A stretch of DNA of 18,270 nt from a bacterium (GTDB lineage Bacteria; Verrucomicrobiota; Verrucomicrobiia; Limisphaerales; J093), in assembly GCA_021784265.1 (NCBI GenBank), contig JAJXTA010000001.1, positions 1 through 18,270 on the forward strand. The letters are read 5' to 3'. Both the position numbers and the translations under genes were made by a program. Numbering within the stretch: position 1 is the stretch's first letter; each line of letters begins with the position of its first letter. The notes beneath the pieces were generated by a model. That model worked only from the letters and a program-made list of their open reading frames with translations. It searched no databases and was not told the origin of the DNA. Positions 4,173 through 18,093 of this stretch are shown piece by piece.

Positions 4173-4201
4173 AGACTAGCGCCCCCCCCGAGAGGCGGCA
4201 A
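4173..4201 (-). promoter_or_regulatory. Putative promoter of the P-type ATPase gene, leaderless layout
   Basis: On the minus strand TTGCCG (4201-4196) is followed after 17 nt by TAGTCT (4178-4173), then only 6 nt to the ATG at 4166. The expected transcription start falls on the start codon. There is no Shine-Dalgarno. The -10 hexamer is weak by E. coli standards, but the layout recurs at other genes in this window. Confidence 0.45.
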
Positions 4202-4224
4202 CCGCGAAGCCTACCCACGCCCGC

Positions 4225-4557
4225 TCAGGTGAGCACGGCCAAGGCCAACACCGAGCAGACCGCCGCCATCAGACCCAATCCCAAGAGAAACGTCAGGTCG
4301 GCCGCCTTGCGCAAGCGGCGGCGCTGGACGACCCCCGCAGCCCGGAACGAGATGAAGGCCAACACGCAAGTGATCAAAAAGAAGATCGCATCCAGGGCCA
4401 AGAGCCCATCGCCCGCGCTCTTGACCCGATTAAAGCTGTGGACCACCCGCAAGAGGCCGATCCCGGTCAGGCACACCCCAATCAACCCCGCCGAGACCGA
4501 GAAAATGGCCAACATCAGTTCGTATTCTCGTTGTTCGTTGTCTGGCTCCGCCGCCAT
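4225..4557 (-). CDS. Small three-helix membrane protein of unknown function
   Basis: This is a 110-residue protein I do not recognise. After a charged N-terminus (AAEPDNEQREYE) it has three hydrophobic segments, about residues 14-37, 51-72 and 87-109. A basic stretch RRRRLRK-like (79-84) lies before the last segment, consistent with a cytoplasmic loop. The start at 4557 was chosen because upstream in-frame sequence is antisense to exbB and does not read as protein, and because a promoter-like element ends 8 nt before this ATG. It precedes the ATPase gene by 58 nt on the same strand, but that gene appears to have its own promoter. Homologues or function cannot be stated from the sequence alone. 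Confidence 0.7.
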   Translation of the reverse strand: MAAEPDNEQREYELMLAIFSVSAGLIGVCLTGIGLLRVVHSFNRVKSAGDGLLALDAIFFLITCVLAFISFRAAGVVQRRRLRKAADLTFLLGLGLMAAVCSVLALAVLT

Positions 4558-4565
4558 GCGGGGGG

Positions 4566-4593
4566 AGGGTACTGGGCCGGGGCGCAGACTCAA
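4566..4593 (-). promoter_or_regulatory. Putative promoter of the small membrane protein gene, leaderless layout
   Basis: On the minus strand TTGAGT (4593-4588), a 16 nt spacer, TACCCT (4571-4566) and 8 nt lead to the ATG at 4557. There is no Shine-Dalgarno. It shares the 120-nt divergent region with the exbB promoter. Confidence 0.4.
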
Positions 4594-4641
4594 CTGCTTT
4601 CGCTCGGCGCGCCGGGCAGCGCCAGAGCGCCACATTGGACA

Positions 4642-4671
4642 TTGCCCGCCCGGGGGCGTTGGCGTTACAAG
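4642..4671 (+). promoter_or_regulatory. Putative promoter of the exbB-exbD-tonB operon
   Basis: TTGCCC (4642-4647), an 18 nt spacer and TACAAG (4666-4671) are followed by 6 nt to the ATG at 4678. A GAGGGG run (4671-4676) touches the start codon and is too close to act as a normal ribosome binding site if the leader is absent. It could be a weak one if transcription starts further upstream. Confidence 0.35.
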
Positions 4672-4677
4672 AGGGGT

Positions 4678-5292
4678 ATGTTGCCTGAACTCCTGAGCCG
4701 TGGCGGGGCGATGATCTGGCTGTTGCTGCTGGCCGGCGCGGTCGCCGTGGCGGTGTTTGTGGAACGGTTGTTGCATTACCATCGCGAACAGATCAACTCG
4801 CTGGATTTCCTCAACGGGGTGCGCAACGTGCTCAAGCGCGACAACGTGGTCGAAGCGATTTCGATCTGCGAGGCCACCCCCGGGCCGGTGGCCCGGCTGG
4901 TCAAAACCGCCATTTTGAGCCGGGACCGCGGGCGGGAAGGAGTGCGTGAGGCGCTCGAGGAAGCGGGCCTGGTCGAGGTGCCCCGCTTGGAGGAGCGGCT
5001 GAACCTGCTGGCCACCATCGCGCAGATCGCCCCAATTATGGGCCTGCTGGGAACTGTGCTCGGGTTTATCGAGGTCTTTCGCGTCTTGCAGCAGCAGGGG
5101 GTCTCGGCGCCCGCCAACGAGCTGGCCGGCGGCATTTGGCAGGCCCTGGTCTGCACCGGCGCCGGGCTGGCGTTGGCCATCCCCTGCTACGCTGGTTACA
5201 ATTACCTCGTGAGCCGGGTCAACACCATCGTCCTGGACATGGAAAAGGCCTCGACCGAAATCCTGAATCTGTTGACCGAGGCCGGGTCGTAG
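4678..5292 (+). CDS. exbB: MotA/TolQ/ExbB family proton channel protein
   Basis: This 204-residue inner-membrane protein belongs to the ExbB/TolQ/MotA family, which with ExbD forms a proton-driven motor that energises TonB-dependent outer-membrane transport. It has three hydrophobic segments at about 12-30, 112-133 and 150-173. The family core is clear: ATIAQIAPIMGLLGTVLGFIE (112-132) and a third helix with ALVCTGAGLALAIPCYAGYN. The start at 4678 gives the usual short N-terminus before helix 1 (MLPELLSRGGAMIW). A longer reading frame upstream runs through sequence that does not look like protein. It is followed after 7 nt by exbD. Nothing essential appears to be missing here, in contrast to its partner. 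Confidence 0.92.
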   Translation: MLPELLSRGGAMIWLLLLAGAVAVAVFVERLLHYHREQINSLDFLNGVRNVLKRDNVVEAISICEATPGPVARLVKTAILSRDRGREGVREALEEAGLVEVPRLEERLNLLATIAQIAPIMGLLGTVLGFIEVFRVLQQQGVSAPANELAGGIWQALVCTGAGLALAIPCYAGYNYLVSRVNTIVLDMEKASTEILNLLTEAGS

Positions 5293-5299
5293 CCACCCC

Positions 5300-5740
5300 A
5301 TGAAATACCCCCGCAACCTGAAAGTCTTCACCGGGCAAATGGAGGTCGCGCCGTTTGCGGGGGTGTTCTTCTTGCTGGTGCTGTTTGTGGTCTTGGAATC
5401 GGCGCTCGCCCCGCCCCCCGGGGTCCACCTCCGGCTCCCGGTCGGTCTGGGTGACGGCTCGCCGGGCACGGCCGGGCCAACCCTGGTGGTCACCATTGAC
5501 CGCGATGAACAGCTTTACTTCGAGCAACAGAACCTCACGGCGGCGGCGTTGCGCGCCCGGCTGGCCGAGAAGGCCCGCGCCGCCCGGGAAGCCCCGGCCT
5601 TGTTGGTCGAGGCGGACAAATCGGTCGCCTGGGACGCCATCGTGCAGTTAACCACCCTGGCCCGGGCGGCGGGGATCCGCGAGGTCACCTTCGCGACCCG
5701 CCCGCCGCTCTTCGCTCCACCGGCCCGGCCCGGGCTATGA
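5300..5740 (+). CDS. exbD: ExbD/TolR family protein lacking the conserved membrane aspartate
   Basis: This 146-residue protein has the ExbD layout: a short cytoplasmic N-terminus, one membrane helix (about 17-36) and a periplasmic alpha/beta domain. The periplasmic domain has the typical LVVTIDRDEQLYFEQQNLT and LLVEADKSVAWDAIVQL strands. In E. coli ExbD the helix starts VTPFIDVML, where Asp25 carries protons. Here the aligned segment is VAPFAGVFF, so the Asp is replaced by Gly21. The nearest acidic residues are Glu15 and Glu33. Either another residue takes its place, the motor works differently, or this subunit is structural. It overlaps the tonB-like gene by 4 nt (ATGA), so it is translationally coupled to it and clearly part of the operon. 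Confidence 0.88.
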   Translation: MKYPRNLKVFTGQMEVAPFAGVFFLLVLFVVLESALAPPPGVHLRLPVGLGDGSPGTAGPTLVVTIDRDEQLYFEQQNLTAAALRARLAEKARAAREAPALLVEADKSVAWDAIVQLTTLARAAGIREVTFATRPPLFAPPARPGL

Positions 5741-6519
5741 AGGGGCGGACCCAACCGCCGCCGGGCTGGAGCTGGCGACGCTGGTGGTTAACGATCAGCG
5801 GGGTGTTAGCGGGCCAAGTGCTGCTCGTCGTGCTCCTCTCGGCGCATCCCCTCCCTCGACCGCTGGCACGCCCGGCGCCCGACCGCTACCGCATTCTGAC
5901 CGATCCCCAGGCCCCCCAGCATTTGGGTGAACTCCCCTGGATTGGAGACCCGGCGGAATTCGCCCTCGCCAGCCGCCACGGATTCTCCGGCCCGATTTGG
6001 CGGCTGGTTCCCCAGTTTGCCCATCAGACCATCGAGTGGTCCGAGCCGCCCCAGTGGCTGGGACTGGAGGTGGCCCGGCTGGGGGTGGTGTCCGCGCCGG
6101 GGGCCGAGACCGGTCCAGCCGCGGAGAACCCAATCGCCGAACGGCCGGCCCCGGTACCCGGCCCTTGGCCGGAGGTCACCGGCATCGCGCCACCGAGCTC
6201 GACCCTGCGCCTGGAGGGCGAACTGGCCGCGCGGCGGCTGCTCAAGCCGCTAGAGCTGCCGGAGTGGACGGTGAACCGGGCGCTGCAATCCACGGCGGTG
6301 CAGGTGATCGTGGACGCCCGCGGCGCGGTGCTGTCGGCGGTGCTCTTGCCCGGCGGCAGCGGGGCGCCGGAGACGGACCAACGCGCGCTCGAGTTGGCGC
6401 GCCACGCCGCCTTCAACCCCGTCCCCGGCCCGCCGCTCACCTGGGGCCGGCTCCGCTTCGAATGGCAACTGCAGGGGCCGACCTCGACCAACCCTCCCCC
6501 CAAGGAGGCCGCCCCATGA
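5737..6519 (+). CDS. TonB-like energy transducer
   Basis: This 260-residue protein has an N-terminal cytoplasmic tip with RR and W residues and one membrane helix (about 17-36). A Pro-rich periplasmic stretch follows (for example PLPRPLARPAP), then a longer low-complexity middle region rich in Pro, Ala and Glu. The C-terminus (about 185-250) resembles the TonB C-terminal fold: VQVIVDARGAVLSAVLLPGG, then DQRALELARHAAFNPVP and a closing GRLRFEWQ strand. Its position directly after exbB and exbD, with 4-nt overlaps on both sides, supports a role as the transducer that contacts outer-membrane receptors. The C-terminal domain is divergent, so the assignment rests on pattern and context together. 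No receptor gene is in the window. Confidence 0.72.
   Translation: MKGRTQPPPGWSWRRWWLTISGVLAGQVLLVVLLSAHPLPRPLARPAPDRYRILTDPQAPQHLGELPWIGDPAEFALASRHGFSGPIWRLVPQFAHQTIEWSEPPQWLGLEVARLGVVSAPGAETGPAAENPIAERPAPVPGPWPEVTGIAPPSSTLRLEGELAARRLLKPLELPEWTVNRALQSTAVQVIVDARGAVLSAVLLPGGSGAPETDQRALELARHAAFNPVPGPPLTWGRLRFEWQLQGPTSTNPPPKEAAP
6502..6508 (+). promoter_or_regulatory. Near-perfect Shine-Dalgarno for the zinc ribbon gene
   Basis: AAGGAGG lies 7 nt before the ATG at 6516, inside the end of the tonB-like gene. It is the clearest ribosome binding site in the window, and it fixes the start of the small downstream gene. Confidence 0.8.
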
Positions 6520-6740
6520 CCGTCGCCGGCCTCTTGTTCTGCTACGTGTTTTCTGTGCTTGCCGGCCTTTCCGCCCTCGCCATATATTCCGAGCTCCGAC
6601 GCCGGAGCTTTGGACCCACTCCGACGGAGGACCACATTTTTCGTTGTGAAAAGTGCGGCTACGTCTATACAGACGATCCCGATGTGGACCGCTCACGCTG
6701 TCCGCAGTGCGGGGCGACGAACGGTGTGTTCACCTTCTAA
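6516..6740 (+). CDS. Small membrane-anchored zinc ribbon protein
   Basis: This 74-residue protein has one N-terminal hydrophobic helix (about 3-24), a short basic linker (SELRRRSFG) and a C-terminal zinc ribbon. Cys44/Cys47 (CEKC) and Cys62/Cys65 (CPQC) have 14 residues between the pairs and likely bind one Zn or Fe ion, rubredoxin-like. The start at 6516 is supported by a strong Shine-Dalgarno and a 4-nt overlap with the tonB-like stop. Upstream in-frame sequence is a shadow of the tonB-like gene. By the positive-inside rule, the basic linker suggests that the ribbon faces the cytoplasm. I do not recognise a named family. Tight coupling to the ExbB/ExbD/TonB genes suggests a role in assembling or regulating that complex, which is inference. 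Confidence 0.82.
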   Translation: MTVAGLLFCYVFSVLAGLSALAIYSELRRRSFGPTPTEDHIFRCEKCGYVYTDDPDVDRSRCPQCGATNGVFTF

Positions 6741-6826
6741 TCGCAGGGTGGGTCCAGGGACCGCCCACGGCCCGGTGCGGGCGGCGTCCCGGCAACCGGC
6801 AACCTTCAACCAGTATCTATTGCTTT

Positions 6827-8005
6827 ATGGGAATGTGGATCGGTCGCAATCGCAAAGCGCGCGTTACCTACGGGTTCGACGAAATCGCGTTGGTGCCTGG
6901 TGACATCACCATCAACCCAGCGGAGGTCGATACCAGCTTTCTCATTCCGCGCAAAGAAGGGGAGAGTATCCGCTTGCAGATCCCCATCCTCGCCAGCGCG
7001 ATGGACGGGGTCACCGACGTGCGCTTTTGTGTCGAGATGGGCCAGTTGGGCGGCTTGGGGGTGATCAACTTGGAAGGCATCCAGACCCGCTACGAGAATC
7101 CGACGGAGCCGCTCCGGGCGATTGTCAAGGCGGGCAAAGAAGAGGTCACCACGCTCATCCAGCGGATTTACCAGGAGCCGATCAAGGAGGAACTGATCAG
7201 CCGGCGGGTTCAGGAGCTCAAACGGGGTGGGGTGCTCGCCGCGGTCAGCTCCATCCCCCAAAAAGCCGAACGGTTCGCCGCGCTCGCGCAGGAAGCTGGG
7301 GCGGACCTCTTCGTGGTCCAATCCACCGTCTCGACCGTCCAGCATCTCTCGACGGAGTACAAGTCGCTGGACCTTCAGGCGTTCACAAAGAGCTTGCGCA
7401 TCCCGGTGATCGTGGGCAACGCGGTGACCTACAAAGTGACCCTCGGGCTGATGGAGTGCGGCGTCGCTGGGGTGCTGATTGGGGTCGGGCCGGGCGCGGC
7501 CTGCACCAGTCGGGGGGTCTTGGGGCTGGGCGTGCCCCAGGTCACGGCCACTGTCGATTGCGCCGCCGCCCGCGACTATTACCATAAGCAGACCGGGCGC
7601 TATGTCCCCATCATCACCGACGGCGGGATGAGCAAGGGCGGGGATGTGTGCAAGGCCCTGGCCTGCGGGGCTGATGCGGTGATGGTGGGCAGTGCTTTCG
7701 CGCGCGCTGAGGAAGCCCCCGGCCATGGCACCCACTGGGGCATGGCCACGCCCCACGCCAACCTGCCGCGGGGCACTCGCATCAAGGTCGGCATCAGCGG
7801 GAGCCTGCGGCAAATCCTGTTCGGTCCGGCGACCGCGGACGACGGTTCCCAAAACCTGGTGGGGGCGATCACCACCTGCATGGGCAACGTCGGCGCCGCC
7901 ACCATCCGCCAGTTCCAAGAGACGGAGATCATCATCGCCCCAAGTATCAAGACGGAGGGCAAGCTGTTCCAGACGGTCCAGAGCGTGGGCATGGGGGCCC
8001 AGTGA
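6827..8005 (+). CDS. guaB3: GuaB3-type IMP dehydrogenase family protein without CBS domains
   Basis: This 392-residue protein of the IMP dehydrogenase/GMP reductase superfamily matches the GuaB3 subgroup known from actinobacteria and cyanobacteria. It opens with WIGRNRKARVTYGFDEIALVP-like sequence, where GuaB3 has IGRGK..R..YG..DIALVP. Other markers are ASAMDGVTDVR (57-66), GQLGGLGVINLEG (72-84), the catalytic loop GPGAACTSRGVLG with Cys226, ITDGGMSKGGDVCKALACGADAVM (263-286), and a flap with THWGMATPH. No tandem CBS module is inserted. It would oxidise IMP to XMP with NAD, or act as a related enzyme. I chose ATG 6827 (MGMWIGRN); ATG 6833 is an alternative. A longer frame upstream overlaps the zinc ribbon gene and is not protein-like. 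The next gene follows after 16 nt. Confidence 0.9.
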   Translation: MGMWIGRNRKARVTYGFDEIALVPGDITINPAEVDTSFLIPRKEGESIRLQIPILASAMDGVTDVRFCVEMGQLGGLGVINLEGIQTRYENPTEPLRAIVKAGKEEVTTLIQRIYQEPIKEELISRRVQELKRGGVLAAVSSIPQKAERFAALAQEAGADLFVVQSTVSTVQHLSTEYKSLDLQAFTKSLRIPVIVGNAVTYKVTLGLMECGVAGVLIGVGPGAACTSRGVLGLGVPQVTATVDCAAARDYYHKQTGRYVPIITDGGMSKGGDVCKALACGADAVMVGSAFARAEEAPGHGTHWGMATPHANLPRGTRIKVGISGSLRQILFGPATADDGSQNLVGAITTCMGNVGAATIRQFQETEIIIAPSIKTEGKLFQTVQSVGMGAQ

Positions 8006-8021
8006 CCCGTACCGGCCAATC

Positions 8022-8963
8022 ATGACCCTCGGACGCGGGTGGCCTCGGCAGCACGGCTGGCTCTTGCTGGCCGGGGGGCTGCTCCTGGCGGGGCGGGGCA
8101 TGCCAGCGGAGCTGGGTGAACCCGCGCCCCCGCTCCTGGCCGCCCAATGGCTCAAGGGCGGTCCCTTGGACTTGGGGGCCGGGCGCGGCAACACCGTCTA
8201 TGTGATCGGGTTCTGGGCCGCCTCGAGCCCGCTCTGTCGGCCCAGCATTACGCACTTGGCCGAGCTCCAGGCGACCTACCCCCAAGGCGGTTTGGCCTGC
8301 GTCGGGATCACCGAAGAACCGCCGGCCCAAGTCCAGCCGCTGATCGAGCCACTGGGGACGAACCTCAACTACGCCGTGGCGGTGGACGATCACCACCAGA
8401 CCGCCAAAGCATATCTGGGCGGCTTCGGCGTGATCGGCCTCCCCCACGCCTTCGTCGTGGACAAGACAGGGGCCGTCGTCTGGCACGGGCACCCGATGCT
8501 GGGTTTGGACGACATCGTGGCCCAGGTGGTGGCGGGCAAGCTCGACCGCGGCGCCGCGCGCAAATCGGCGCGCGCCGGGACGTTGGCTCAACAGTACCTC
8601 CGCTTGGTTCGCACCGGCGACGCGGGACCGGCGGCCGCACAATTGGGGAGCGACGTCGTGCGCGACGGCACCAACAACACCCCTTTGCTCAATGAGTTCG
8701 CCTGGGCCATCCTGACCGATACCCATATCACCAACCGCGACCTGCCCTTGGCGTTGCGCGCCGCCCAAGCCGCCCGCGACGTTACCGGCGGGCGTGAGCC
8801 GGCGATCCTTGATACCTACGCCCGGGCGCTCTTCGACTCCGGCAGAATCCCCGAGGCGATCGCGGCTCAGGAAGGGGCGGTGAAGGCCTGTAACGATCCC
8901 CGGGTCCGCGCCCAGCTCGAGGCGACCCTCCGCCACTATCGCGAACGGCTTCCGGCCAAGTAG
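8022..8963 (+). CDS. Secreted thioredoxin-fold (TlpA-like) protein with TPR-like C-terminus, CxxC changed to SxxC
   Basis: This 313-residue protein has an N-terminal signal peptide: basic residues, a Leu/Gly/Ala-rich core at about 12-24, and possible cleavage after PA near residue 29. A redoxin/TlpA-like domain follows: GEPAPPLLAAQWLKGG, then VYVIGFWAASSPLCRPS (59-75), where normal members have FWATWCxxC. A cis-Pro loop is at GVIGLPHAFVVDKTG. The first active-site Cys is replaced by Ser69 and only Cys72 remains. The last ~110 residues are alpha-helical with a TPR-like stretch (LDTYARALFDSGRIPEAIAAQEGAVKAC). It probably acts outside the cytoplasm. With one Cys it cannot run a normal dithiol cycle. 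It is close enough to guaB3 to be cotranscribed, though no functional link is evident. Confidence 0.82.
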   Translation: MTLGRGWPRQHGWLLLAGGLLLAGRGMPAELGEPAPPLLAAQWLKGGPLDLGAGRGNTVYVIGFWAASSPLCRPSITHLAELQATYPQGGLACVGITEEPPAQVQPLIEPLGTNLNYAVAVDDHHQTAKAYLGGFGVIGLPHAFVVDKTGAVVWHGHPMLGLDDIVAQVVAGKLDRGAARKSARAGTLAQQYLRLVRTGDAGPAAAQLGSDVVRDGTNNTPLLNEFAWAILTDTHITNRDLPLALRAAQAARDVTGGREPAILDTYARALFDSGRIPEAIAAQEGAVKACNDPRVRAQLEATLRHYRERLPAK

Positions 8964-9061
8964 GGCCCGAGTCCCCTGGGAGCAAACCGGCGCCGCGGCG
9001 GTCGGCAAGCTGGATGGCGGACTGCCGGGATCTCTCCGAGAGGCTGGGGCAAGTCCAGGTT

Positions 9062-9565
9062 CTACGGCGGGACGGAGCCTGGCGGCTGCTGCATCTGCCG
9101 CACCAGGCCGCGTGTCGATTTGCCCGGCACCAACGGCAACAAAACGATCCGCCCCCCGGCCCCTTCGACGGCCCGCCGTTCTTCCTGATTGAGCGTGGCC
9201 AGGGTGTAGTCGCCGCCTTTGACGTAGATGTCCGGGCCGGCCAAGGTCAGAAACCGCGTGGCTGTCACCTCGGGAAACACCGTGACCGCGGCGACCGCTT
9301 CTAACGCCGCCACGAGCGCCGCCCGATCGGCTTCGCCGTTGAGCGGACGGCCTGGGCCTTTGAGGGCCTGCACCGCGGCATCCCCGTTGACCCCGACCAG
9401 CAAGCCGTCGCCCAGCCGACGGGCGGCCTCCAGGTAGGTGGCATGGCCCAGGTGCAGCAGGTCGAAACACCCGTTGGTGACGACCAACCGCTGGCCCCGC
9501 GCCCGCCACCCGGCCCGCCAGTCGGCCAAGTGCGCGAGAGGAATGACTTTTGACCGAAAATCCAT
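9062..9565 (-). CDS. hldC: D-glycero-beta-D-manno-heptose 1-phosphate nucleotidyltransferase (RfaE domain II type)
   Basis: This 167-residue stand-alone nucleotidyltransferase corresponds to the second domain of HldE. It transfers a nucleotide to heptose-1-phosphate in the ADP-heptose route for LPS inner core. Motifs are VVTNGCFDLLHLGHATYL (28-45) with the HxGH signature at 38-41, GDGLLVGVNGDAAVQALKGPGRP (52-74), PDIYVKGGDY (111-120) and a final GKSTRGLV (148-155). The kinase domain found fused in E. coli HldE is absent and not elsewhere in the window. The start at 9565 is supported by GAGG 7 nt upstream and a promoter-like pair further out. It is divergent from the DUF151 gene and convergent with the thioredoxin-like gene. 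Confidence 0.9.
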   Translation of the reverse strand: MDFRSKVIPLAHLADWRAGWRARGQRLVVTNGCFDLLHLGHATYLEAARRLGDGLLVGVNGDAAVQALKGPGRPLNGEADRAALVAALEAVAAVTVFPEVTATRFLTLAGPDIYVKGGDYTLATLNQEERRAVEGAGGRIVLLPLVPGKSTRGLVRQMQQPPGSVPP

Positions 9566-9583
9566 GGTCCGGCCTCAAAGGCT

Positions 9584-9613
9584 CTGATACCGGCGGCGGG
9601 GGCCAAAAGTCAA
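9584..9613 (-). promoter_or_regulatory. Putative promoter of hldC
   Basis: On the minus strand TTGACT (9613-9608), an 18 nt spacer and TATCAG (9589-9584) are followed by an 18 nt stretch to the ATG containing GAGG, 7 nt before it. Unlike its neighbours, this gene therefore has a conventional, though short, leader with a ribosome binding site. Confidence 0.5.
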
Positions 9614-9622
9614 GGCCCAGGC

Positions 9623-9650
9623 TTGTAATCCTGGCAAAAACTTCTAGAGT
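9623..9650 (+). promoter_or_regulatory. Putative promoter of the DUF151 gene, leaderless layout
   Basis: TTGTAA (9623-9628), a 16 nt spacer and TAGAGT (9645-9650) are followed by 6 nt to the ATG at 9657. A GAGG at 9651-9654 is only 2 nt from the ATG, too close to be a good Shine-Dalgarno. It shares 91 nt with the divergent hldC promoter. Confidence 0.45.
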
Positions 9651-9656
9651 GAGGTC

Positions 9657-10121
9657 ATGAAGAACGATGTGGTGCCGGTTGAGATTCGCGGGATACTGCC
9701 GGCGAACAGCGGCTGCGCGATCTTTGTCGGCAACGAGCAAAAGGTCTTCGTGATCCAGGTGGAAGCGAACATGGGGGCGGTGATCGGGATGTTCTTGCGC
9801 GACACCCCCAAGGAGCGGCCCTTGACCCACGACCTTGTCCGCAGCGTTTTTCAAGCCTTCGGCATCACGGTGGAGCGGGCGGTCATCACGGAGCTGAAGA
9901 ACTCGACCTACTATGCCCGGCTGATTCTGCAGCAACAAAACGAACTCGGACGCAAGATCGTCGAGCTGGACGCCCGGCCCAGCGATTGTCTGGCGCTGGC
10001 GGCGGCGCAGAAGCGGCCGGTCTTCGTGGCGGCGCGGCTCTTCGACCAAGTCGAAGACATGTCCGAGCTCTTAGCCAAGATCAACGAAGGTGGCGGTGAG
10101 TCCGAAACCCCGGGTCAATAG
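9657..10121 (+). CDS. Bifunctional nuclease family protein (DUF151)
   Basis: This 154-residue protein contains the DUF151/bifunctional nuclease domain across about residues 1-140. Recognisable segments are a strand series starting VPVEIRGILPANSGCAIFVGNEQKVFVIQVE, RPLTHDLVRSVFQAFGITVERAVITEL (about 54-80), and the characteristic ARPSDCLALAAAQKRPVFVA (around 107-126). Plant members have RNase and DNase activity. Bacterial members are mostly uncharacterised, so the activity here is by family only. The last ~15 residues are Gly/Glu-rich and probably disordered. A promoter-like element precedes the ATG directly. The next gene, holA, starts 146 nt later after a GC-rich hairpin. Confidence 0.88.
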   Translation: MKNDVVPVEIRGILPANSGCAIFVGNEQKVFVIQVEANMGAVIGMFLRDTPKERPLTHDLVRSVFQAFGITVERAVITELKNSTYYARLILQQQNELGRKIVELDARPSDCLALAAAQKRPVFVAARLFDQVEDMSELLAKINEGGGESETPGQ

Positions 10122-10171
10122 CTGTCGGGTGGTGGAGGGTTCTTCGGCCGCCGCTTTCGCGCTGCCCCGCA

Positions 10172-10199
10172 CCCGGCAGCGGGCTTGGCGCCCGCCGGG
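10172..10199 (+). other. GC-rich hairpin between the DUF151 gene and holA
   Basis: A 6-bp stem GCGGGC/GCCCGC (10179-10184 and 10190-10195, loop TTGGC) is extended by CCCG/CGGG (10172-10175 and 10196-10199) across a short left-side bulge. No T run follows, so it is not a classical intrinsic terminator. It may reduce read-through or protect mRNA ends. Spurious hairpins are common at this GC content. Confidence 0.35.
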
Positions 10200-10267
10200 A
10201 GCGGGGGCGTGGTGCGACTGCAGCCGGCGCTGGGCCAGGTAGCCTGCCGCAAGCCGCTTGCCTCCTC

Positions 10268-11472: not shown

Positions 11473-12000
11473 ATGGCCGAACCGTCCGCTACCATGATGG
11501 TTGCCGTGGGTGATTCGCTCGCCTGTCTGAAGCTGGCGGGGCGGGCGAGCTTGAACTCGAGTGTCGATTTCAAGACCTTCGTCAACGAGTTGCTCGCCCG
11601 TGGCTATCGTCAGTTCGTCCTGGACCTGACCGATTGCCTGGCGATGGACAGCACCTTTCTGGGGGTGTTGGCGGGCTTCGCCCAACGCTTGGCGCAGGAC
11701 ACCACCCAACCCCGGCGGCTGGACCTCATCAACGCCAGCCCGCGCATCACCGACTTCCTTGAGAACCTAGGTGCGCTCCCCCTCTTCACGCTGCGCCAGT
11801 GCCCGGGCGGCTTGAACGGGAAATACCAGCCGGTGCCAGGGCGTGATCCGACCAAGGCCGAACTCTCTCAGGTGTGTCTGGAGGCCCACCGGATCCTCAT
11901 GGAGCTTAGCCCCGCCAATGTCCCCAAGTTCAAGGACATCACCCGTTTCTTGGCCGAGGACCTGAAGAAGGCGGGTGAGGAGCCGGGCGGGGCGCACTAA
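11473..12000 (+). CDS. STAS-domain protein, anti-sigma factor antagonist-like
   Basis: This 175-residue protein has an N-terminal STAS domain (about 8-108). The central YRQFVLDLTDCLAMDSTFLGVLAGFA strand-helix unit (45-70) includes Ser60 in the place of the serine phosphorylated in SpoIIAA-type antagonists. The following RRLDLINASPRITDFLENLGALPLF is also typical. A ~65-residue charged, helical C-terminal extension (from about 112) is not part of the minimal STAS fold. Such proteins bind anti-sigma or switch kinases in partner-switching pathways. No kinase or PP2C phosphatase is adjacent, so it looks like an orphan. It starts 53 nt after holA, with a weakly AT-rich stretch before the ATG but no clear promoter or Shine-Dalgarno, and may be cotranscribed with holA. 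Confidence 0.85.
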   Translation: MAEPSATMMVAVGDSLACLKLAGRASLNSSVDFKTFVNELLARGYRQFVLDLTDCLAMDSTFLGVLAGFAQRLAQDTTQPRRLDLINASPRITDFLENLGALPLFTLRQCPGGLNGKYQPVPGRDPTKAELSQVCLEAHRILMELSPANVPKFKDITRFLAEDLKKAGEEPGGAH

Positions 12001-12295
12001 TCAACGGATAGGCTGGCGGGGGACCGGCGCCGAGGCGGACCACGAAACCCGGTGATCCGCCACCGTCGAGCGCAAGGGTGGGACGGCCTCCTTCGGTTAC
12101 CTGCCTGATCCGCCTGCCGGCGAGTCGGCTGCCCCCAAGACCCAACCGGCTTACAGGACCCGGGCCTAAATGAACCACACGCATTGCCTCGAGGATCGGC
12201 TCTCAGGAACGGCGCGTTGGCACCGACACTGCCCGCCGGTTCCCCTCCACCGATAGGGGCCTCTTCCCGGCGGCCGCGCGGCCCGCCAGCGTGAG
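12001..12295. other. Gene-free stretch between convergent genes
   Basis: The 295 nt between the STAS gene and the PEP-CTERM gene contain no convincing coding sequence on either strand. Two small inverted repeats occur near the PEP-CTERM end: CCCCT/AGGGG (12242-12246 and 12255-12259) and the stronger one listed separately. No tRNA-like cloverleaf or T-tract terminator is evident. Confidence 0.6.
12269..12287 (-). terminator. Possible transcription-end hairpin of the PEP-CTERM gene
   Basis: GGCGGCC (12269-12275) and GGCCCGCC (12280-12287) pair with one bulged base around a GCGC loop, beginning 8 nt past the stop codon of the minus-strand gene. There is no U run after it, so it is at best a non-canonical or Rho-assisted end. 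Confidence 0.3.
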
Positions 12296-13108
12296 TTATT
12301 GCCGCCGCCGCATGAAGCGCACGCTCGTCAGGCCAAAGGGCAGGGCCATCAGGGCGCCAGCGACCAACGTGGCTGGTTCAGGCACCAGCACCTCCTGGTA
12401 CGGCATGCCCGCGTAGTTGGGCGGGGCGAAAGGCTGAAGCAGCTTACCCGTGGGGTTGCCACTGATATTCCCCAATTGGGCGAGGTAGTTGTTCGCCGCC
12501 GTAATGGCACTGGCGGTGGCGCCAGAATAGGACCCGGTGAGGGAGAAGTGGCGTCCGGCGCCGCTGGCGCCTCCGGTGGTGACATCCAGACCGCCGCCAT
12601 AGCCGGTGTCGTATAACGACTCCCAAATGGCCAACTGCAAGCCCGCCCGCTCGGCCGTGGTGCCGGCGATCTGCTGCCCGGAAGGCAGCCCGATCCCCAG
12701 ACTGAAGGCGTTGTAGAGCTTGGCCGCGTTCTGGATCGCCTGGCCGGCGTCCGAGGCGCTATAGCCCCATTTGGGCTTCAGGCCGTCCAGCCCGGCAAAG
12801 TCCAGCACGTTGAACTGGTAGGTCCACCCCGCCACCAGCCCGCCGCCGACATCCAGGCAGTAAGTGCTCAAGGTCTGGGGCAACAGCGCGTTGTTGTTGG
12901 CCGGGTTTTGCACCAGCGTCAGCGGACCGGCATAGGCCGCTTCGGAGCTGGTGCCAGCCGCGACTCGGTCATAGTACTGGACCGAGAAGGGCAGCATCGA
13001 GCCTCGAGTGTCCACGATCCGGTAATCCACCGAGGCGTTCAGAGTGAGGGTGGCCGCGACCGTAGCCGGGAGCAACAGGGTCCGCCAAATCATGTCAGTG
13101 TGTTTCAT
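12296..13108 (-). CDS. PEP-CTERM sorted protein with thioester-domain-like motifs
   Basis: This 270-residue exported protein has a signal peptide (about 1-25, probable cleavage after LNA). Its C-terminal PEP-CTERM tripartite signal is VPEPATL (242-248), a short hydrophobic helix (about 248-263) and a terminal RRR cluster. Exosortase cleaves such signals and attaches or releases the protein at the cell envelope, usually with exopolysaccharide. The body has TYCLDVGGG with Cys84 and RAGLQLAIWESLYDTGYG with Gln158. This spacing and wording resemble the Cys and Q-x-A-I-W halves of Cys-Gln thioester adhesin domains. A Gly/Ser/Thr-rich segment (170-205) follows. No exosortase gene is in the window. 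The upstream region has its own repeats, unlike other promoters here. Confidence 0.9.
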   Translation of the reverse strand: MKHTDMIWRTLLLPATVAATLTLNASVDYRIVDTRGSMLPFSVQYYDRVAAGTSSEAAYAGPLTLVQNPANNNALLPQTLSTYCLDVGGGLVAGWTYQFNVLDFAGLDGLKPKWGYSASDAGQAIQNAAKLYNAFSLGIGLPSGQQIAGTTAERAGLQLAIWESLYDTGYGGGLDVTTGGASGAGRHFSLTGSYSGATASAITAANNYLAQLGNISGNPTGKLLQPFAPPNYAGMPYQEVLVPEPATLVAGALMALPFGLTSVRFMRRRQ

Positions 13109-13125
13109 AGCTTGTCCCTTTCTAA

Positions 13126-13155
13126 CCGTTACGCGCTACTTGTAGCGCGAAACGG
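13126..13155. promoter_or_regulatory. 30-bp near-perfect inverted repeat upstream of the PEP-CTERM gene
   Basis: The arms are CCGTT-a-CGCGCTAC (13126-13139) and GTAGCGCG-a-AACGG (13142-13155), separated by TT. Thirteen of 14 positions pair; the only mismatch is A opposite A. It sits 18-47 nt before the PEP-CTERM ATG. It could be a repressor operator or a strong 5'-UTR hairpin (tetraloop CAAG on the PEP-CTERM mRNA) controlling translation. Confidence 0.65.
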
Positions 13156-13173
13156 CCCGCGGCGTCTGCCCGT

Positions 13174-13204
13174 TTTTGGGACATTCTTGATCAGTTTTGG
13201 GACA
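13174..13204. repeat. Two 10-bp direct repeats phased 21 bp apart
   Basis: TTTTGGGACA occurs at 13174-13183 and 13195-13204 on the plus strand, read as TGTCCCAAAA toward the PEP-CTERM gene. The 21-bp period is two helical turns, so both copies face the same side of DNA, as for a dimeric activator. The copies lie about 65-97 nt before the PEP-CTERM ATG. A related GGGACA core recurs near the ribosome binding region in the other orientation. Confidence 0.6.
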
Positions 13205-13342
13205 CCCGGGAGGCGACGGGATTTCCGGCTTTCCCGGTGCCCGCGCTGAGTTGAGGCCCCCGATTCCCCCTTCTAAAGGCAGCTTCGCCCGCGCCCCCAG
13301 GCAACGAGGCCGGTTTGGCCCGAGGCCGGCGGGGAAAAGTGC

Positions 13343-13372
13343 TTGTCACCTTTCACGTCCTCTCGGTAGGTT
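13343..13372 (+). promoter_or_regulatory. Putative promoter of the aminotransferase operon, leaderless layout
   Basis: TTGTCA (13343-13348), an 18 nt spacer and TAGGTT (13367-13372) are followed by 8 nt to the ATG at 13381. The -35 hexamer matches 5 of 6 consensus bases. No Shine-Dalgarno is visible. Confidence 0.45.
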
Positions 13373-13380
13373 GAGCGGCC

Positions 13381-14505
13381 ATGAACGTTGAGTTTTACGG
13401 CCATGTGCGCCAATACCACAATCTCAAGGCGGAGATCGATGCCAACCTGCACGCGGTGCTCGAGAGCGGGCAGTACGTCATGGGGCCGATGCTCAAGCGG
13501 TTCGAGGGGGAGCTGGCGGCGTATCACGGCACCAAATACGCGGTGGGAGTGGGCAACGGCACCGATGCCATCTGGTTGGCGCTGATGGCGTTAGGGATTG
13601 GTCCGGGCGACGAGTGCATCACCACCACGAACACCTTCTTCGCCACCGCCGAGGCGATCTGGATCGCCGGCGCCACGGCGGTGTTCGTCGATAGCGATCC
13701 GCGGACCCATTGCATTGACCCGGCCAAAATCGAGGCCGCCATCACCCCGAAGACCAAAGCCCTCATTCCTGTCCATCTCTACGGCCAGTGCGCCGATATG
13801 CGGGCCATCCGCCACCTCGCCGACCGCCACAAGCTGGTCGTGATCGAGGACAACGCCCAGGGGATCGGGGCCCGAGGCGATACCTTCCGCATCGGAGAGC
13901 TGAGCGATGCCACCACCATCAGTTTCATCATCCAAAAAAACCTCGGCACCTTTGGCGACGGGGGGGCGGTGGTGACCAATAACGCCCAACTGGACGCCCA
14001 GGTGCGCAAGCTGCGCAACCACGGGTCGGACAAGCGTTCCTGCCACAGCTACGGCTTCAACAGCCGGCTGGACGACCTGCACGCCGGCATCCTCTCGGCC
14101 AAACTCAAGCACATTGACGCCGGCAACGACCAGCGGCGGACCTGGGCGGCCCGCTACGACGCCGGATTGCGCGGGGTCCAGCACCTGACTCTCCCGCACG
14201 CCCGCCCCGGCTACCGGCATATCTACCACCTCTACGTCATCGAGACCCACCAGCCGGCGCAACGCGACGTCCTGCTCCAGTTCCTCCAGGACCAGGGCAT
14301 CGACGCCAAGTGCCATTACCCGATCGCCATCCACCAGCAGGCCGGCTATCCCTGGGGCAAAGCGGCCCGGATCGCCGGCCCCATCCCGAACTCCGAACGC
14401 AACGCCGCCACCTGCGTCTCGCTGCCGATGTTCCCCGAACTGACCGCCGCCGAGGTGGATTACGTGATCGCGAAGGTGCGGGAGTGGGACCAGCAGGCCG
14501 GCTGA
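13381..14505 (+). CDS. DegT/DnrJ/EryC1/StrS family PLP-dependent sugar aminotransferase
   Basis: This 374-residue aminotransferase transfers an amino group, usually from glutamate, to a keto-sugar. Signatures in order are ESGQYVMGPMLKRFE (28-42), VGVGNGTDAIWLAL (55-68), NTFFATAEAI (84-93), VHLYGQCADM (131-140) and VVIEDNAQGIGA (153-164), where Asp157 would contact the PLP ring nitrogen. The Schiff-base Lys186 lies in IIQKNLGTFGDGGAVVTN. GFNSRLDDLHAGIL (225-238) is the dimer-loop motif. All essential residues are present. It heads a run with a Gfo/Idh/MocA dehydrogenase and NagB, so the dehydrogenase may supply the keto-sugar. The start is the first ATG and lies 8 nt after a promoter-like element. 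The substrate (nucleotide sugar or sugar phosphate) is not determined by the sequence. Confidence 0.92.
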   Translation: MNVEFYGHVRQYHNLKAEIDANLHAVLESGQYVMGPMLKRFEGELAAYHGTKYAVGVGNGTDAIWLALMALGIGPGDECITTTNTFFATAEAIWIAGATAVFVDSDPRTHCIDPAKIEAAITPKTKALIPVHLYGQCADMRAIRHLADRHKLVVIEDNAQGIGARGDTFRIGELSDATTISFIIQKNLGTFGDGGAVVTNNAQLDAQVRKLRNHGSDKRSCHSYGFNSRLDDLHAGILSAKLKHIDAGNDQRRTWAARYDAGLRGVQHLTLPHARPGYRHIYHLYVIETHQPAQRDVLLQFLQDQGIDAKCHYPIAIHQQAGYPWGKAARIAGPIPNSERNAATCVSLPMFPELTAAEVDYVIAKVREWDQQAG

Positions 14506-14534
14506 GACAGCAAACGAGGGCTCAGCCCAGCGCT

Positions 14535-14559
14535 CGCCCCGCGGGCCTTGCGCGGGGCG
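14535..14559 (+). other. Stable GC hairpin between aminotransferase and dehydrogenase genes
   Basis: CGCCCCGCG (14535-14543) and CGCGGGGCG (14551-14559) form a perfect 9-bp stem with a 7-nt loop, 29 nt after the aminotransferase stop. No T run follows. It may be an attenuator, an RNA processing or 3'-end stabilising element within the operon. A small palindrome GGGCT-c-AGCCC lies just upstream at 14518-14528. Confidence 0.5.
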
Positions 14560-14598
14560 GCTCAACCACGCGGGCCCCCGAACCACGATTTCATCGAC

Positions 14599-15669
14599 AT
14601 GAGCACCCCTTACCGAGTCCTGGTGGTGGGCCTGGGCAAACGCGGTCTGCACCACGCCGCCGCCTTTCACGCCAACCCCCGCTTCACCGTTGCCGGCATT
14701 TGTGACATCGACGCCACCCGCCTGAGCGCCGCCGCGGCGAAACTGGGCCAGCCGCAACACGACACCGACGCGGCCCGCTTGGCCCGGGCCGTGCGGCCCG
14801 ACATCTTCTGCTTTTGCACCCTCCCGAGCCTGCGGACCGACCTGATCCGCCTGGGGATTGAAAGCGGGGCCCGGCTGATCGCCTTCGAGAAGCCGGTGGC
14901 CCTCAGCAGCGCCGAGGGCATGGTGGTGAAGAGTCTGCTGGAGCGCGCCGGAACGAAGGCGGTGGTGAGCCACCAACACCGTTACGGCGTCCACTACCGG
15001 AAGGTGCGGGAGCTCATCGCCAGCGGCGCCCTGGGCCGCGTCCACACCGTTTATGGCACCGCCAGCGGCTGGATGACGCACATGCTCTCGCATCTGATCG
15101 ACTACATGCGTTGGTATAATGACGAGGCGCCCGCCGCCTGGGTCATGGCCCAGGCCGCCGGCCGCGGCAAGCTCGCCGACCTCCATCCCTCCCCCGATTA
15201 CCTCGGGGGCTTCATCCAGTTTGCCAACGGCGTGCGGGGCGTGGTCGAGTGCGGGGCCGGCGCCCCCGACGTGCCGGAAGTGGGCTACTGGTGGCGGAAG
15301 TGCCGCATCGGCGCCCAAGGAACCGACGGCTTTGCCGAGGTCCTCACCGGCGGCGGCTGGCGGGCGGTGACCAAGCAGGGCGTCAGCGGGGGCGAGGGCT
15401 GTATGAACTACGACCTCGACATGCCCCCGTACATCGACCAGATGGCCGACTGGCTGGACGACGACCGCAAGGTCCACCCCTGCAACTTCGCCGCCGCCCA
15501 TGCCGGTTTCGAGATCATGATGGCCCTCTGCCGTTCCGTGGTCGAAGGGGGCCAGGTCGCCCTCCCGTTAACCCAAGGGGCCGACGAGCTGGCGGCCTTG
15601 CGCCAGAAGCTGCCCGACCGCAAGGTGCTGCTCTCCTGCGCGGAAAACGCGAAGGAGTATCTCCCCTAA
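14599..15669 (+). CDS. Gfo/Idh/MocA family NAD(P)-dependent sugar dehydrogenase
   Basis: This 356-residue oxidoreductase has a Rossmann N-terminus: VLVVGLGKRGLHHA with GLGKRG at 11-16, then ICDID with Asp36 at the end of the second strand, favouring NAD over NADP. The conserved EKP motif is at 97-99 (AFEKPVAL). The C-terminal alpha/beta domain includes SHQHRYGVHYRKVRELI (124-140) and HMLSHLIDYMRW (161-172), where His165 and Asp168 occupy the usual catalytic positions. The start at 14599 (MSTPYRVLVVG) was chosen because upstream in-frame sequence crosses a hairpin and is not protein-like. It lies 93 nt after the aminotransferase and probably shares its transcript. It would oxidise a sugar, sugar phosphate or nucleotide sugar to the keto form; the exact substrate is unknown. 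Confidence 0.9.
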   Translation: MSTPYRVLVVGLGKRGLHHAAAFHANPRFTVAGICDIDATRLSAAAAKLGQPQHDTDAARLARAVRPDIFCFCTLPSLRTDLIRLGIESGARLIAFEKPVALSSAEGMVVKSLLERAGTKAVVSHQHRYGVHYRKVRELIASGALGRVHTVYGTASGWMTHMLSHLIDYMRWYNDEAPAAWVMAQAAGRGKLADLHPSPDYLGGFIQFANGVRGVVECGAGAPDVPEVGYWWRKCRIGAQGTDGFAEVLTGGGWRAVTKQGVSGGEGCMNYDLDMPPYIDQMADWLDDDRKVHPCNFAAAHAGFEIMMALCRSVVEGGQVALPLTQGADELAALRQKLPDRKVLLSCAENAKEYLP

Positions 15670-15670
15670 C

Positions 15671-15685
15671 CGGGCGCGACGCCCG
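15671..15685 (+). other. Small perfect hairpin after the dehydrogenase stop codon
   Basis: CGGGCG (15671-15676) and CGCCCG (15680-15685) pair around a 3-nt CGA loop, directly after the stop codon of the dehydrogenase gene. No T run follows. nagB begins 53 nt later without a visible promoter, so full termination here seems unlikely. Confidence 0.35.
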
Positions 15686-15738
15686 CCAATTCCGCCCGGC
15701 GCGCGTCGCCTCGCCGGCGAACCGCCCCGCGCTGCCCC

Positions 15739-16524
15739 ATGGAAGTTATCATCCGCCCGGACGCCGCCGCCGCCGCTCAGTTGGTGACGCAGATCATTGC
15801 GCGCGAGGTGCGGGCCAACCCGCGGTTGGTCTTGGGCTTGGCCACCGGCCGGACGATGGAATCGGTGTACCGCATGCTCGTGCGGCTGCACCGGGAGGAG
15901 GGACTGGATTTCGCCGGGTGCCGGACCTTCAACCTGGATGAATACGTCGGGCTGGGTCCGAACGATCCGCACTCGTACCGCTACTACATGGGCCAGCACC
16001 TGTTCGGGCAGGTGAACCTCGCTCCGCAGCACACCCACCTTCCGGATGGTACGGCGGCTGATCTGGCGGCCGAGTGCGCCCGCTACGAGCGGGCGATCGC
16101 CGCGGTCGGTGGCCTCGACCTCCAGTTGCTGGGGATCGGTCGGGCCGGCCACCTCGGTTTCAACGAACCGTTGTCCGCCCTGCGCTCCCGCACCCGCGTC
16201 AAGGCCCTGACTCCGGTCACCCTGGCCCAAAACGCCCCGCTCTTTGCCGACCCCGCGCGGATGCCCCGCCGGGCGATCACGATGGGCGTGGGGACGATCC
16301 TCGACTCGCGGCGTTGCCTGCTGCTCGCGACAGGGGAGGAGAAGGCCGCGATCATCGCCAAGGCCGTCGAGGGGCCCATCACCTCGATGATCTCCGCCAC
16401 CAGCTTGCAGCTTCATCCCCGCTGCACGGTGGTGGTCGATGAAGCCGCCGGCCAGCGGCTGCAGGAGACGGAATACTACCGCTGGATCTTCGCCAACGAA
16501 CCGGAGTGGGAGAGCTTCCGCTGA
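15739..16524 (+). CDS. nagB: Glucosamine-6-phosphate deaminase/isomerase
   Basis: This 261-residue protein matches NagB, which converts glucosamine-6-phosphate to fructose-6-phosphate and ammonia. Motifs are LGLATGRTMESVY (32-44, phosphate loop), TFNLDEYVGL (63-72) with Asp67, equivalent to E. coli Asp72, GIGRAGHLGFNEP (132-144) with His138 and Glu143, and RRAITMGVGTIL. E. coli has NDGH at the third motif and this protein has RAGH, so Asp141 is replaced by Ala136. I recall Asn at this position in B. subtilis NagB, so the site is variable, but Ala is a marked change. Its place after the aminotransferase and dehydrogenase links the run to amino-sugar metabolism. It converges with the sulfatase across 82 nt. 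No promoter or Shine-Dalgarno is visible. Confidence 0.9.
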   Translation: MEVIIRPDAAAAAQLVTQIIAREVRANPRLVLGLATGRTMESVYRMLVRLHREEGLDFAGCRTFNLDEYVGLGPNDPHSYRYYMGQHLFGQVNLAPQHTHLPDGTAADLAAECARYERAIAAVGGLDLQLLGIGRAGHLGFNEPLSALRSRTRVKALTPVTLAQNAPLFADPARMPRRAITMGVGTILDSRRCLLLATGEEKAAIIAKAVEGPITSMISATSLQLHPRCTVVVDEAAGQRLQETEYYRWIFANEPEWESFR

Positions 16525-16606
16525 TCAGGCCTCGGTGTCGCCACTCGGGCGGGCAGCGGACCTGGCGCCGTCGGCGCACGCCCTGGCCATGCCGCCCGCC
16601 GGTCAG

Positions 16607-18058
16607 TCATTGAGAGCTGGCGCCAGGCGCAGCGACGACATACCGGTTGGGTAACGTCCCTCCCTGGGCCTCATACCAGGCCCGCAACAGGATCCGCTCG
16701 CTCGCGAGCGCGGCCTGGTGGGCAGGGTCTGACGCCAAGTTGCGCATTTCGCCCGGATCGGTTTTCAAATCCACGAGCAGCTCGCGCCGCGGGCCGGAGT
16801 CATAGACGGCGTATTTGTAACGTTGGGAACGCAGAACGCGAGAACGCTCGTTCTCGACCACCAGGTTGGTGCGCCAATCGGTCACGGAGGCGCCCGCGGC
16901 TAAAGGCCTGAGGCTCCGGCCTCGGAGTGCGGCCGGCGGCGCGATGCCGGCGAAATCGCAGAGCGTTGGCATCAGGTCCAGGCCCGTCGATACCAAGTGG
17001 GCACGGTCCACGCGGCCCCGCGCGGTCACCCCCGGGCCGCTGAGGATCAGGGGGACGTTGATGGCTTCCTCGTAGGGCATGGATTTGTGTTCGAGATGGT
17101 GCGAGGCGTCCATGTCACCGTGGTCGCTGGTGAACAGGACAACCGTGTCTTGTTCGTGCTTCGTGTCGCGCAAGGCGTCCAAGACGGTGGCGATTTGCGC
17201 GTCCACCCGCTCGGTGAGGCGGGCGTAGGCCCAGCGGTGCAGCCGCCACTGCTCGTCCGTCCAGTGGGTCTGCACGTAGCCACGAAACGGGCGCCAGTCG
17301 CTGCGACGCACCGCGGGCGGTTCGCCCGCCGGGATGCCGAAATTGGCCGGCAACGGCGGACAGACGGTGCGGAAAAACTCGGCCGAACTCAGCTCCGGGG
17401 GCAAGACCAGGGCGGTCGCCAACGCCGGCACGGTGAACTCCTTCTCCCCGTGCGCGGCGGCATAGGCGTTGATGGCCAAGTAACAGATGTCGTGCGGGTT
17501 GATGAACGAGGCGACGAGCAGGAACGGCCGATCATGCGGCTGGCGCAGAAACGCGGCACAGGCCGCGGCCAGCCCTTCCCGCTCATCCGCGGTCAACCGC
17601 CGGAAGCCGTAGGACTCGGGGCCACCCTTGGGGGCGGCACCGGGCAGGTGGACCTTGCCGCCGTACACGGTCTCGTAACCCGCCTGGCGAAAGACGGCGC
17701 CGAGGGTCTGCGCCCACAGCGCGGGCGGCACAGCGTTAGTGATCTGATCGTTATACTCCAGCCCGATACAGCTCGGCATGCGGCCGGTCATCAATGCGAA
17801 CCGCGACGGGACACAGACCGGGTTCGCGCAGTACGCGTGCGCAAACCGCACGCCACGCGCCGCCAAGCGGTCCAGCCCGGGCGTGTGGAGATACCGGTTG
17901 CCCGCGCAGCTCAGCATGTCCGCCCGTTGTTGATCGGTGAGAATGACCAGGAGGTTCGGCCGCGGGGAGGCCGCCGCGTCGCACGCCACCCAGAGCGCCA
18001 CGGCGATCACCCACTCGAACCACGGGCGCCAGAGCCAGCCAGCCGATGTTTGCTTCAT
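16607..18058 (-). CDS. Secreted sulfatase (type I, formylglycine-dependent)
   Basis: This 483-residue protein of the arylsulfatase/alkaline phosphatase superfamily has an N-terminal signal peptide (hydrophobic core about 15-28, likely cleavage after DAAA near 30). LLVILTDQQRADML (36-49) provides metal-binding Asp42/Gln43. The sulfatase signature VCVPSRFALMTGR (81-93) has Cys82, the residue converted to formylglycine, and Arg86. A second metal site is in FTSDHGDM, followed by HLEHKSMPYEEAINVPLILSGPG, and the C-terminal YKYAVYDSG...ELLVDLKTDPGEMRNLA block is typical. It would remove sulfate esters from carbohydrates outside the cytoplasm, a common trait of PVC glycan degraders. Specificity cannot be told. 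The activating enzyme gene is not in the window. A promoter-like element lies just before the ATG. Confidence 0.92.
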   Translation of the reverse strand: MKQTSAGWLWRPWFEWVIAVALWVACDAAASPRPNLLVILTDQQRADMLSCAGNRYLHTPGLDRLAARGVRFAHAYCANPVCVPSRFALMTGRMPSCIGLEYNDQITNAVPPALWAQTLGAVFRQAGYETVYGGKVHLPGAAPKGGPESYGFRRLTADEREGLAAACAAFLRQPHDRPFLLVASFINPHDICYLAINAYAAAHGEKEFTVPALATALVLPPELSSAEFFRTVCPPLPANFGIPAGEPPAVRRSDWRPFRGYVQTHWTDEQWRLHRWAYARLTERVDAQIATVLDALRDTKHEQDTVVLFTSDHGDMDASHHLEHKSMPYEEAINVPLILSGPGVTARGRVDRAHLVSTGLDLMPTLCDFAGIAPPAALRGRSLRPLAAGASVTDWRTNLVVENERSRVLRSQRYKYAVYDSGPRRELLVDLKTDPGEMRNLASDPAHQAALASERILLRAWYEAQGGTLPNRYVVAAPGASSQ

Positions 18059-18065
18059 GGGACGC

Positions 18066-18093
18066 AGCGTACCGCGACCCGGCGATCCCGCAA
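18066..18093 (-). promoter_or_regulatory. Putative promoter of the sulfatase gene, leaderless layout
   Basis: On the minus strand TTGCGG (18093-18088), a 16 nt spacer and TACGCT (18071-18066) are followed by 7 nt to the ATG at 18058. No Shine-Dalgarno is present. The hexamers are weak singly; support comes from the repeated layout across the window. Confidence 0.35.

Follow-up and report, generated by a model that had tools for sequence, protein, structure and literature searches.

Start-adjacent sigma-70-type promoters predict leaderless mRNAs in the bacterial order Limisphaerales

Leaderless genes are already known in bacteria, Akkermansia included. The TA-led genes of Actinobacteria and Deinococcus-Thermus carry a TANNNT motif approximately 12 nucleotides (nt) upstream of the start, the three middle bases of this -10 element carry little information in high-GC genomes, and Verrucomicrobia do not appear among the groups listed in that account as having leaderless genes (Zheng et al. 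2011, PMC3160421). Cappable-seq of Akkermansia muciniphila located 10% of transcription start sites (886 high-confidence positions, replicate 1) at annotated starts, compared with 0.4% in Escherichia coli (PMC4782308). In Deinococcus-Thermus, mutation has shown that a -10 box beside the open reading frame (ORF) drives leaderless expression and that a -35 element enhances it (PMC12340547), and in mycobacteria ribosome profiling and reporters found a 5'-terminal ATG or GTG to be necessary and sufficient (PMC4633059). Our limited literature search found no paper on leaderless genes in Limisphaerales, though print may hold one. Here we describe a promoter layout that recurs before six genes in an 18,270 nt stretch (positions 1 to 18,270 of contig JAJXTA010000001.1, assembly GCA_021784265.1; hereafter the window) belonging to a metagenome-assembled genome of this order (4329957 bases, 870 contigs, 75.6% complete; hereafter the source genome). 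We consider it highly likely, from the placement of the boxes, that these are sigma-70-type promoters positioned for transcription from the A of the start codon, which predicts leaderless mRNAs, and such mRNAs are very probably common in this lineage.

An earlier note, made from the letters of the window, described six units sharing the order TTGnnn, 16-18 nt, TAnnnn, 6-8 nt, ATG. On re-measurement all boxes, spacers and distances were exact, and Pfam agrees with the names it had given to the ATPase, ExbB, DUF151 (now 'bifunctional nuclease domain'), DegT and sulfatase products. The six promoters, each an exact match, and the genes that follow them are:

4173..4201 (-), ATPase promoter: TTGCCG 4196-4201, 17 nt, TAGTCT 4173-4178, 6 nt, ATG 4166
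1809..4166 (-), P-type cation ATPase gene, predicted leaderless (Pfam E1-E2_ATPase)
4566..4593 (-), small membrane protein promoter: TTGAGT 4588-4593, 16 nt, TACCCT 4566-4571, 8 nt, ATG 4557
4225..4557 (-), gene for a 110-aa small membrane protein, predicted leaderless (frame inside ORF 4225..5496)
4642..4671 (+), exbB promoter: TTGCCC 4642-4647, 18 nt, TACAAG 4666-4671, 6 nt, ATG 4678
4678..5292 (+), exbB (MotA/TolQ/ExbB), predicted leaderless (Pfam MotA_ExbB)
9623..9650 (+), DUF151 promoter: TTGTAA 9623-9628, 16 nt, TAGAGT 9645-9650, 6 nt, ATG 9657
9657..10121 (+), DUF151 / bifunctional nuclease gene, predicted leaderless (Pfam BFN_dom)
13343..13372 (+), DegT promoter: TTGTCA 13343-13348, 18 nt, TAGGTT 13367-13372, 8 nt, ATG 13381
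13381..14505 (+), DegT/DnrJ/EryC1 aminotransferase gene, predicted leaderless (Pfam)
18066..18093 (-), sulfatase promoter: TTGCGG 18088-18093, 16 nt, TACGCT 18066-18071, 7 nt, ATG 18058
16607..18058 (-), sulfatase gene, predicted leaderless (Pfam Sulfatase)

A gene-blind scan of both window strands for TTG-N19..21-TAnnnT-N6..8-ATG returned five matches, all of them gene starts (ATPase, small membrane protein, DUF151, DegT and sulfatase); exbB falls outside this strict form because position 6 of its -10, TACAAG, is not T. The TTG and TAnnnT boxes are thus 16-18 nt apart in five genes, as they are in exbB with TACAAG, and in all six the first T of the -10 lies at -12 to -14 and the base at -1 is C or T. 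None of the six has a well-spaced Shine-Dalgarno (SD) sequence, as had been reported, the sole GAGG strings lying 3 nt (exbB) and 2 nt (DUF151) from the ATG. The layout marks approximately 6 of the 11 transcription units of the window and is absent from its other first genes: hldC, the genes for a PEP-CTERM-like protein, an IMPDH/GMP reductase and a STAS protein, and holA.

The promoter is kept at a near-fixed distance from the start in relatives for three of the six genes: DUF151, exbB and DegT. The DUF151 comparison retained 80 loci from 109 found. Of these best 80 relatives in named genomes, 70 bear titles such as Limisphaerales, Pedosphaera or Verrucomicrobia, seven only 'bacterium', and three carry other names; the assignment of the source genome to the order follows from them. 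The loci are related, a few of them near-identical, so they do not amount to 80 independent cases. TAnnnT lies 6-7 nt before the start in 77 loci, at exactly 6 nt (first T at -12) in 75, with a TTG 15-19 nt ahead of the -10 in 76 (spacer 16 in 62, 17 in 14) and a pyrimidine (C or T) at -1 in 73. A base profile of 75 loci, aligned on the start codon and selected for T at -12, A at -11 and T at -7, reads TA, then A/C/G, A at -9 (91%), C/T (87%) and T, and positions -6 to -2 hold at most 0.23 bits, the intervening bases varying at this near-fixed distance. Hexamer, distance and -1 pyrimidine together fit sigma-70 numbering with the A of ATG as +1, in which the -10 hexamer spans -12 to -7 and the -35 TTG begins near -34. 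Three loci depart from this: L036, L043 and L087 keep a CTTGT box, but their TAnnnT is separated from the ATG by 26, 10 and 11 nt, respectively, as if a short leader had been gained. Beyond the order the strict TAnnnT occurs at 5-9 nt in only 4 of 29 DUF151 loci, or 9 of 29 if TAnnAn is allowed.

Several further features of the DUF151 loci were observed. Records L026, L038 and L055, titled Candidatus Omnitrophota, Akkermansia muciniphila and Klebsiella pneumoniae, hold a DUF151 78-81% identical to that of the window behind the same promoter, and are probably misnamed bins. A run of T follows the -35 (CTTGTTTTT), with T at -31, -29, -28 and -27 in 89-97% of the 75 loci (L021-L100), exceeding what a sigma-70 -35 requires; the window copy carries TTGTAATCC in its place. 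In the 60 nt before the DUF151 gene of L060 the -10 stretch is tandemly doubled (GTGCATAGACT twice), the second copy lying 6 nt from the ATG. Outside the order (L293-L313) many loci show, by eye, CTTGC near -35 and CAnnTT-like strings 6-8 nt before the ATG, which suggests a shifted -10 preference in other families.

Among the exbB orthologs (29 loci, 28 with the start located), 25 of the 28 carry TAnnnT or TAnnAn at a distance of 5-9 nt from the start, and 20 have a TTG box 15-19 nt ahead; TAnnAn is the form seen in most of these relatives, strict TAnnnT occurring in 2 of the 28. Among DegT orthologs both boxes, with a looser -10, are present in 13 of 16 and strict TAnnnT in 9. The sulfatase gained no support from comparison: in the 57 relatives a cut-off of E<=1e-100 left just two homologs, whose alignments begin at residue 20 or later. 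For the 110-aa small membrane protein, Pfam gave no match, and a search of 57 related genomes at E<=0.001 returned no homolog.

For counts within the source genome, genes were called with a purpose-written codon-bias caller on 81 contigs including the window (14% of the genome), with starts set by coding score and nearby in-frame candidate starts also allowed in the two-box scan; a fixed two-box score (threshold 11) was then tallied per distance from the start, expectations being taken from distances 14-29. At 5-9 nt the 248 first genes gave 68 gene-distance hits against 25.6 expected, and with the window excluded 234 first genes gave 61 hits (52 genes) against 23.4 (Poisson p about 7e-11, hits treated as independent), with a peak at exactly 6 nt (20 vs 4.7) and enrichment also at 7, 8 and 9 nt. 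Operon-internal genes of the same genome showed no clear excess (9 vs 5.6, n=124), and 71 first genes from 150 kb of E. coli K-12 gave 12 against 19.7 without a peak. The earlier note had proposed shuffled and operon-internal sequences as background, and the excess stands over both: counting the coding start alone, 38 of 234 first genes hit, compared with a mean of 4.1 and a maximum of 13 in 100 dinucleotide shuffles (with a plain-shuffle fallback) and with 5 of 124 operon-internal genes. Genome G011 (same family; 280 kb, 140 first genes) gave 43 vs 18.4, again peaking at 6 nt, and G018 (120 kb, 75 first genes) 9 vs 2.8. The relatives' 80 loci with DUF151 removed (three GC groups summed) gave 28 vs 8.1 for divergent genes (n=61), 35 vs 21.8 for distant same-strand genes (n=77) and 5 vs 10.9 for operon-internal genes (n=103); a stricter regular-expression count over these loci found little excess.

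In counts made free of annotation, TAnnnT alone before the 11399 ATGs of the source-genome sample had no clear peak (23, 29 and 38 at 6, 7 and 8 nt), and base composition before first genes rises only mildly in A/T at -14 to -7. TTG plus TAnnnT at the same three distances occurred 7, 4 and 9 times before ATG and 7, 4 and 5 times before GTG, and 0, 0 and 2 times before the control triplet AGT, 2, 3 and 3 before GAT, and 1, 1 and 0 before GTA. The base at -1 is a pyrimidine in 35 of the 52 candidates and in 108 of 182 other first genes. The statement that the third base of the -10 is always G or C describes the window only: 15 strict hits in the source genome (4 in the window) have G in 6, C in 4, T in 4 and A in 1, and A occupies this position in 45% of DUF151 relatives.

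The enrichment anticipated genome-wide is present: across the whole source genome CTTGN{19,21}TANNNTN{6,8}ATG has 56 occurrences, against 12 when the ATG is shifted to 16-18 nt and 10 when the pattern is reversed. The searched genomes of the order share the layout at varying strength: over 58 genomes (the source genome included) the pattern totals 3681, the shifted decoy 1130 and the backward control 1209, all 58 exceeding the shifted decoy and 52 exceeding it at least twofold. Some true sites have another ATG ten bases further along (e.g. DUF151, G035:C318) and are counted in the shifted decoy as well, which therefore errs on the strict side. By group, the ratio of pattern to shifted decoy is highest in the order (3.26, 58 genomes); among 194 genomes drawn from the phylum the groups are f47/g55 (2.41, 17 genomes), f49 (2.08, 18 genomes), other families of the class (1.59; 30 genomes, 23 above the decoy) and other classes (1.55; 128 genomes, 113 above); elsewhere the signal is patchy, with values as high or higher in single families such as f56 (9.0, one genome) and f73 (4.5, four genomes). 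Between them, the genome-wide enrichment and the conserved distance support the earlier reading that leaderless initiation is common in this lineage.

The proposed explanation joins these promoters to established sigma-70 geometry and to the published leaderless systems. RNA polymerase bearing the housekeeping sigma factor would initiate at the A of the start codon, giving an mRNA whose 5' end is AUG or GUG and which has neither leader nor SD; and a ribosome carrying initiator tRNA would recognise the 5'-terminal start codon directly. In the source genome approximately 15-25% of first genes appear to be leaderless, a model-dependent figure: the excess amounts to ~16% of them with threshold 11 and to 24% with threshold 10, counted in hits, not genes.

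A number of results weigh against this reading. The layout was not seen in five ATPase orthologs (L212-L216), four of which align only from residue 17-18, their starts not being located. Where the distance is 7-9 nt, a leader of 1-3 nt would remain unless the start site moved. G001 (400 kb, 57% GC, 137 first genes) has only a weak peak (40 vs 33.1), G051 and G052 fail to rise above the backward control, and ratios to the shifted decoy are low in G025 (1.25), G052 (1.29) and G056 (1.55). In the annotation-free count of the two boxes the control triplet CAT is raised as well (4, 8 and 3 at 6, 7 and 8 nt), and G at -1 is found in 15 of the 52 candidates, much like other first genes (54 of 182). 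A gene may hit at more than one distance, and the percentages of leaderless genes are rough. Finally, a blind expectation-maximisation motif search upstream of genes, the kind of discovery the earlier note had suggested, did not recover the promoter motif, which indicates that the motif marks a minority of genes; given that failure, we base the claim on a defined model and its decoy distances.

Among competing explanations the one that survives best, and that we nonetheless consider improbable, holds that each mRNA does carry a leader, though a very short one (1-5 nt), so that translation begins close to the 5' end and not at it, the promoter lying near the gene for other reasons such as a short intergenic space. 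The enrichment at 7, 8 and 9 nt alongside 6 would fit such leaders, as would the 8 nt of the DegT and small membrane protein genes; the peak nevertheless falls at 6 nt in both the source genome and G011, and DUF151 holds exactly 6 nt in nearly all of its loci. Nor is lack of room a general cause, since DegT has 272 nt upstream and hits in L009 and L019 have 302 and 262 nt as called. Considerably less probable is that the A/T-rich box is a translation signal (an unstructured or S1-binding site on a leadered mRNA without SD) and no promoter at all: low SD use and the lack of SD excess before first genes of the source genome would be expected of it, but the box has promoter form and is accompanied, in 76 of the 80 DUF151 loci, by a -35 TTG at 16-17 nt that translation would not need, and operon-internal genes show no clear excess; on these grounds we rejected it. 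That TAA or TAG at -12 serves as an in-frame stop ending upstream frames before the ATG has next to no likelihood; a 6 nt distance does put the hexamer in frame, and roughly three quarters of the 75 DUF151 loci have TAA or TAG, yet TAC, which is no stop, makes up 24%, and we rejected the idea for leaving A at -9, T at -7, the -1 pyrimidine and the -35 unexplained. Chance (TAnnnT picked by eye before six ATGs, from a short, degenerate motif and six units chosen among about eleven) was likewise rejected as practically negligible, given five of five gene-blind matches at gene starts and counts above decoys in the source genome and the order.

Leaderless transcription from the start codon remains our preferred explanation of the layout. 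An SD 4-mer at -16 to -5 occurs in 1 of the 52 candidate leaderless genes, in 17 of 182 other first genes and in 16 of 124 operon-internal genes. Relative to local background, SD counts in the source genome are 8 vs 7.7 for divergent genes, 17 vs 15.0 for far genes and 22 vs 11.2 for operon-internal genes; the corresponding values are 4 vs 3.5, 8 vs 6.6 and 12 vs 2.8 in G011, and in the 80 pooled loci without DUF151 far genes have 2 vs 7.7 and operon-internal genes 22 vs 8.3. We tentatively put forward, and ourselves lean somewhat against, the possibility that Limisphaerales, and patchily other Verrucomicrobiota, divide two modes by position in the unit, with first genes leaderless or SD-free and SD sequences mostly operon-internal. 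Divergent genes of the pooled loci (7 vs 2.9) speak against such a division, as does the SD excess in G018 (divergent 11 vs 7.0, far 11 vs 2.1) and in far genes of G001 (15 vs 5.2); E. coli has a strong SD excess in every class, and there too operon-internal genes are highest. Leaderless or SD-free first genes combined with SD sequences inside operons are described for some archaea. The source genome (75.6% complete) gave no 16S rRNA match, hence no anti-SD could be read from it. SD-scarce Verrucomicrobia have been reported (PMC10783764). If the division were true, ribosome sharing between the two modes would become testable beyond Actinobacteria and Deinococcota.

Three details of the window concern individual units. 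The ATPase gene, which the earlier note had listed as a transcription unit, is not clearly a separate one: its promoter layout stands, but the small membrane protein gene ends 58 nt upstream in the same orientation, and transcription coming from there may include the ATPase as well. dUTPase, which the earlier note took as operon-internal and lacking such a pair, has a degenerate TTGCCT, 16 nt, GAATCC, 7 nt, ATG (1758-1785, -). The PEP-CTERM-like gene has an SD-like AAAGGGA 6 nt before its ATG (13115-13121, -), unlike the six leaderless candidates.

On this evidence Limisphaerales provide a new and well-supported case of an already established mode of gene expression. Leaderless expression is thereby extended to a large order, known chiefly from metagenomes, throughout which its footprint is seen. 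Gene finders would gain a usable start signal where SD sequences are scarce, as the promoter marks the start codon. For DUF151, exbB and DegT the promoter keeps to within a few nucleotides of the ATG throughout the order. The closest likeness is to the TA-led genes, which in the account of Zheng et al. likewise have TANNNT approximately 12 nt upstream, above shuffled background; here, by contrast, conservation extends to the -35, and orthologous footprints and whole-genome decoys make up the evidence (PMC3160421). The -10 adjoins the ORF as in Deinococcus-Thermus, where about 30% of ORFs are reported to be so arranged (PMC12340547). Mycobacterial leaderless translation, as described, uses ATG and GTG starts (PMC4633059), and the 52 candidates here, whose leaderless state is predicted, comprise 32 ATG, 16 GTG and 4 TTG. 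Akkermansia muciniphila belongs to the same phylum and to another lineage; the leaderless starts reported there are experimental (PMC4782308), and those of Limisphaerales are predicted.

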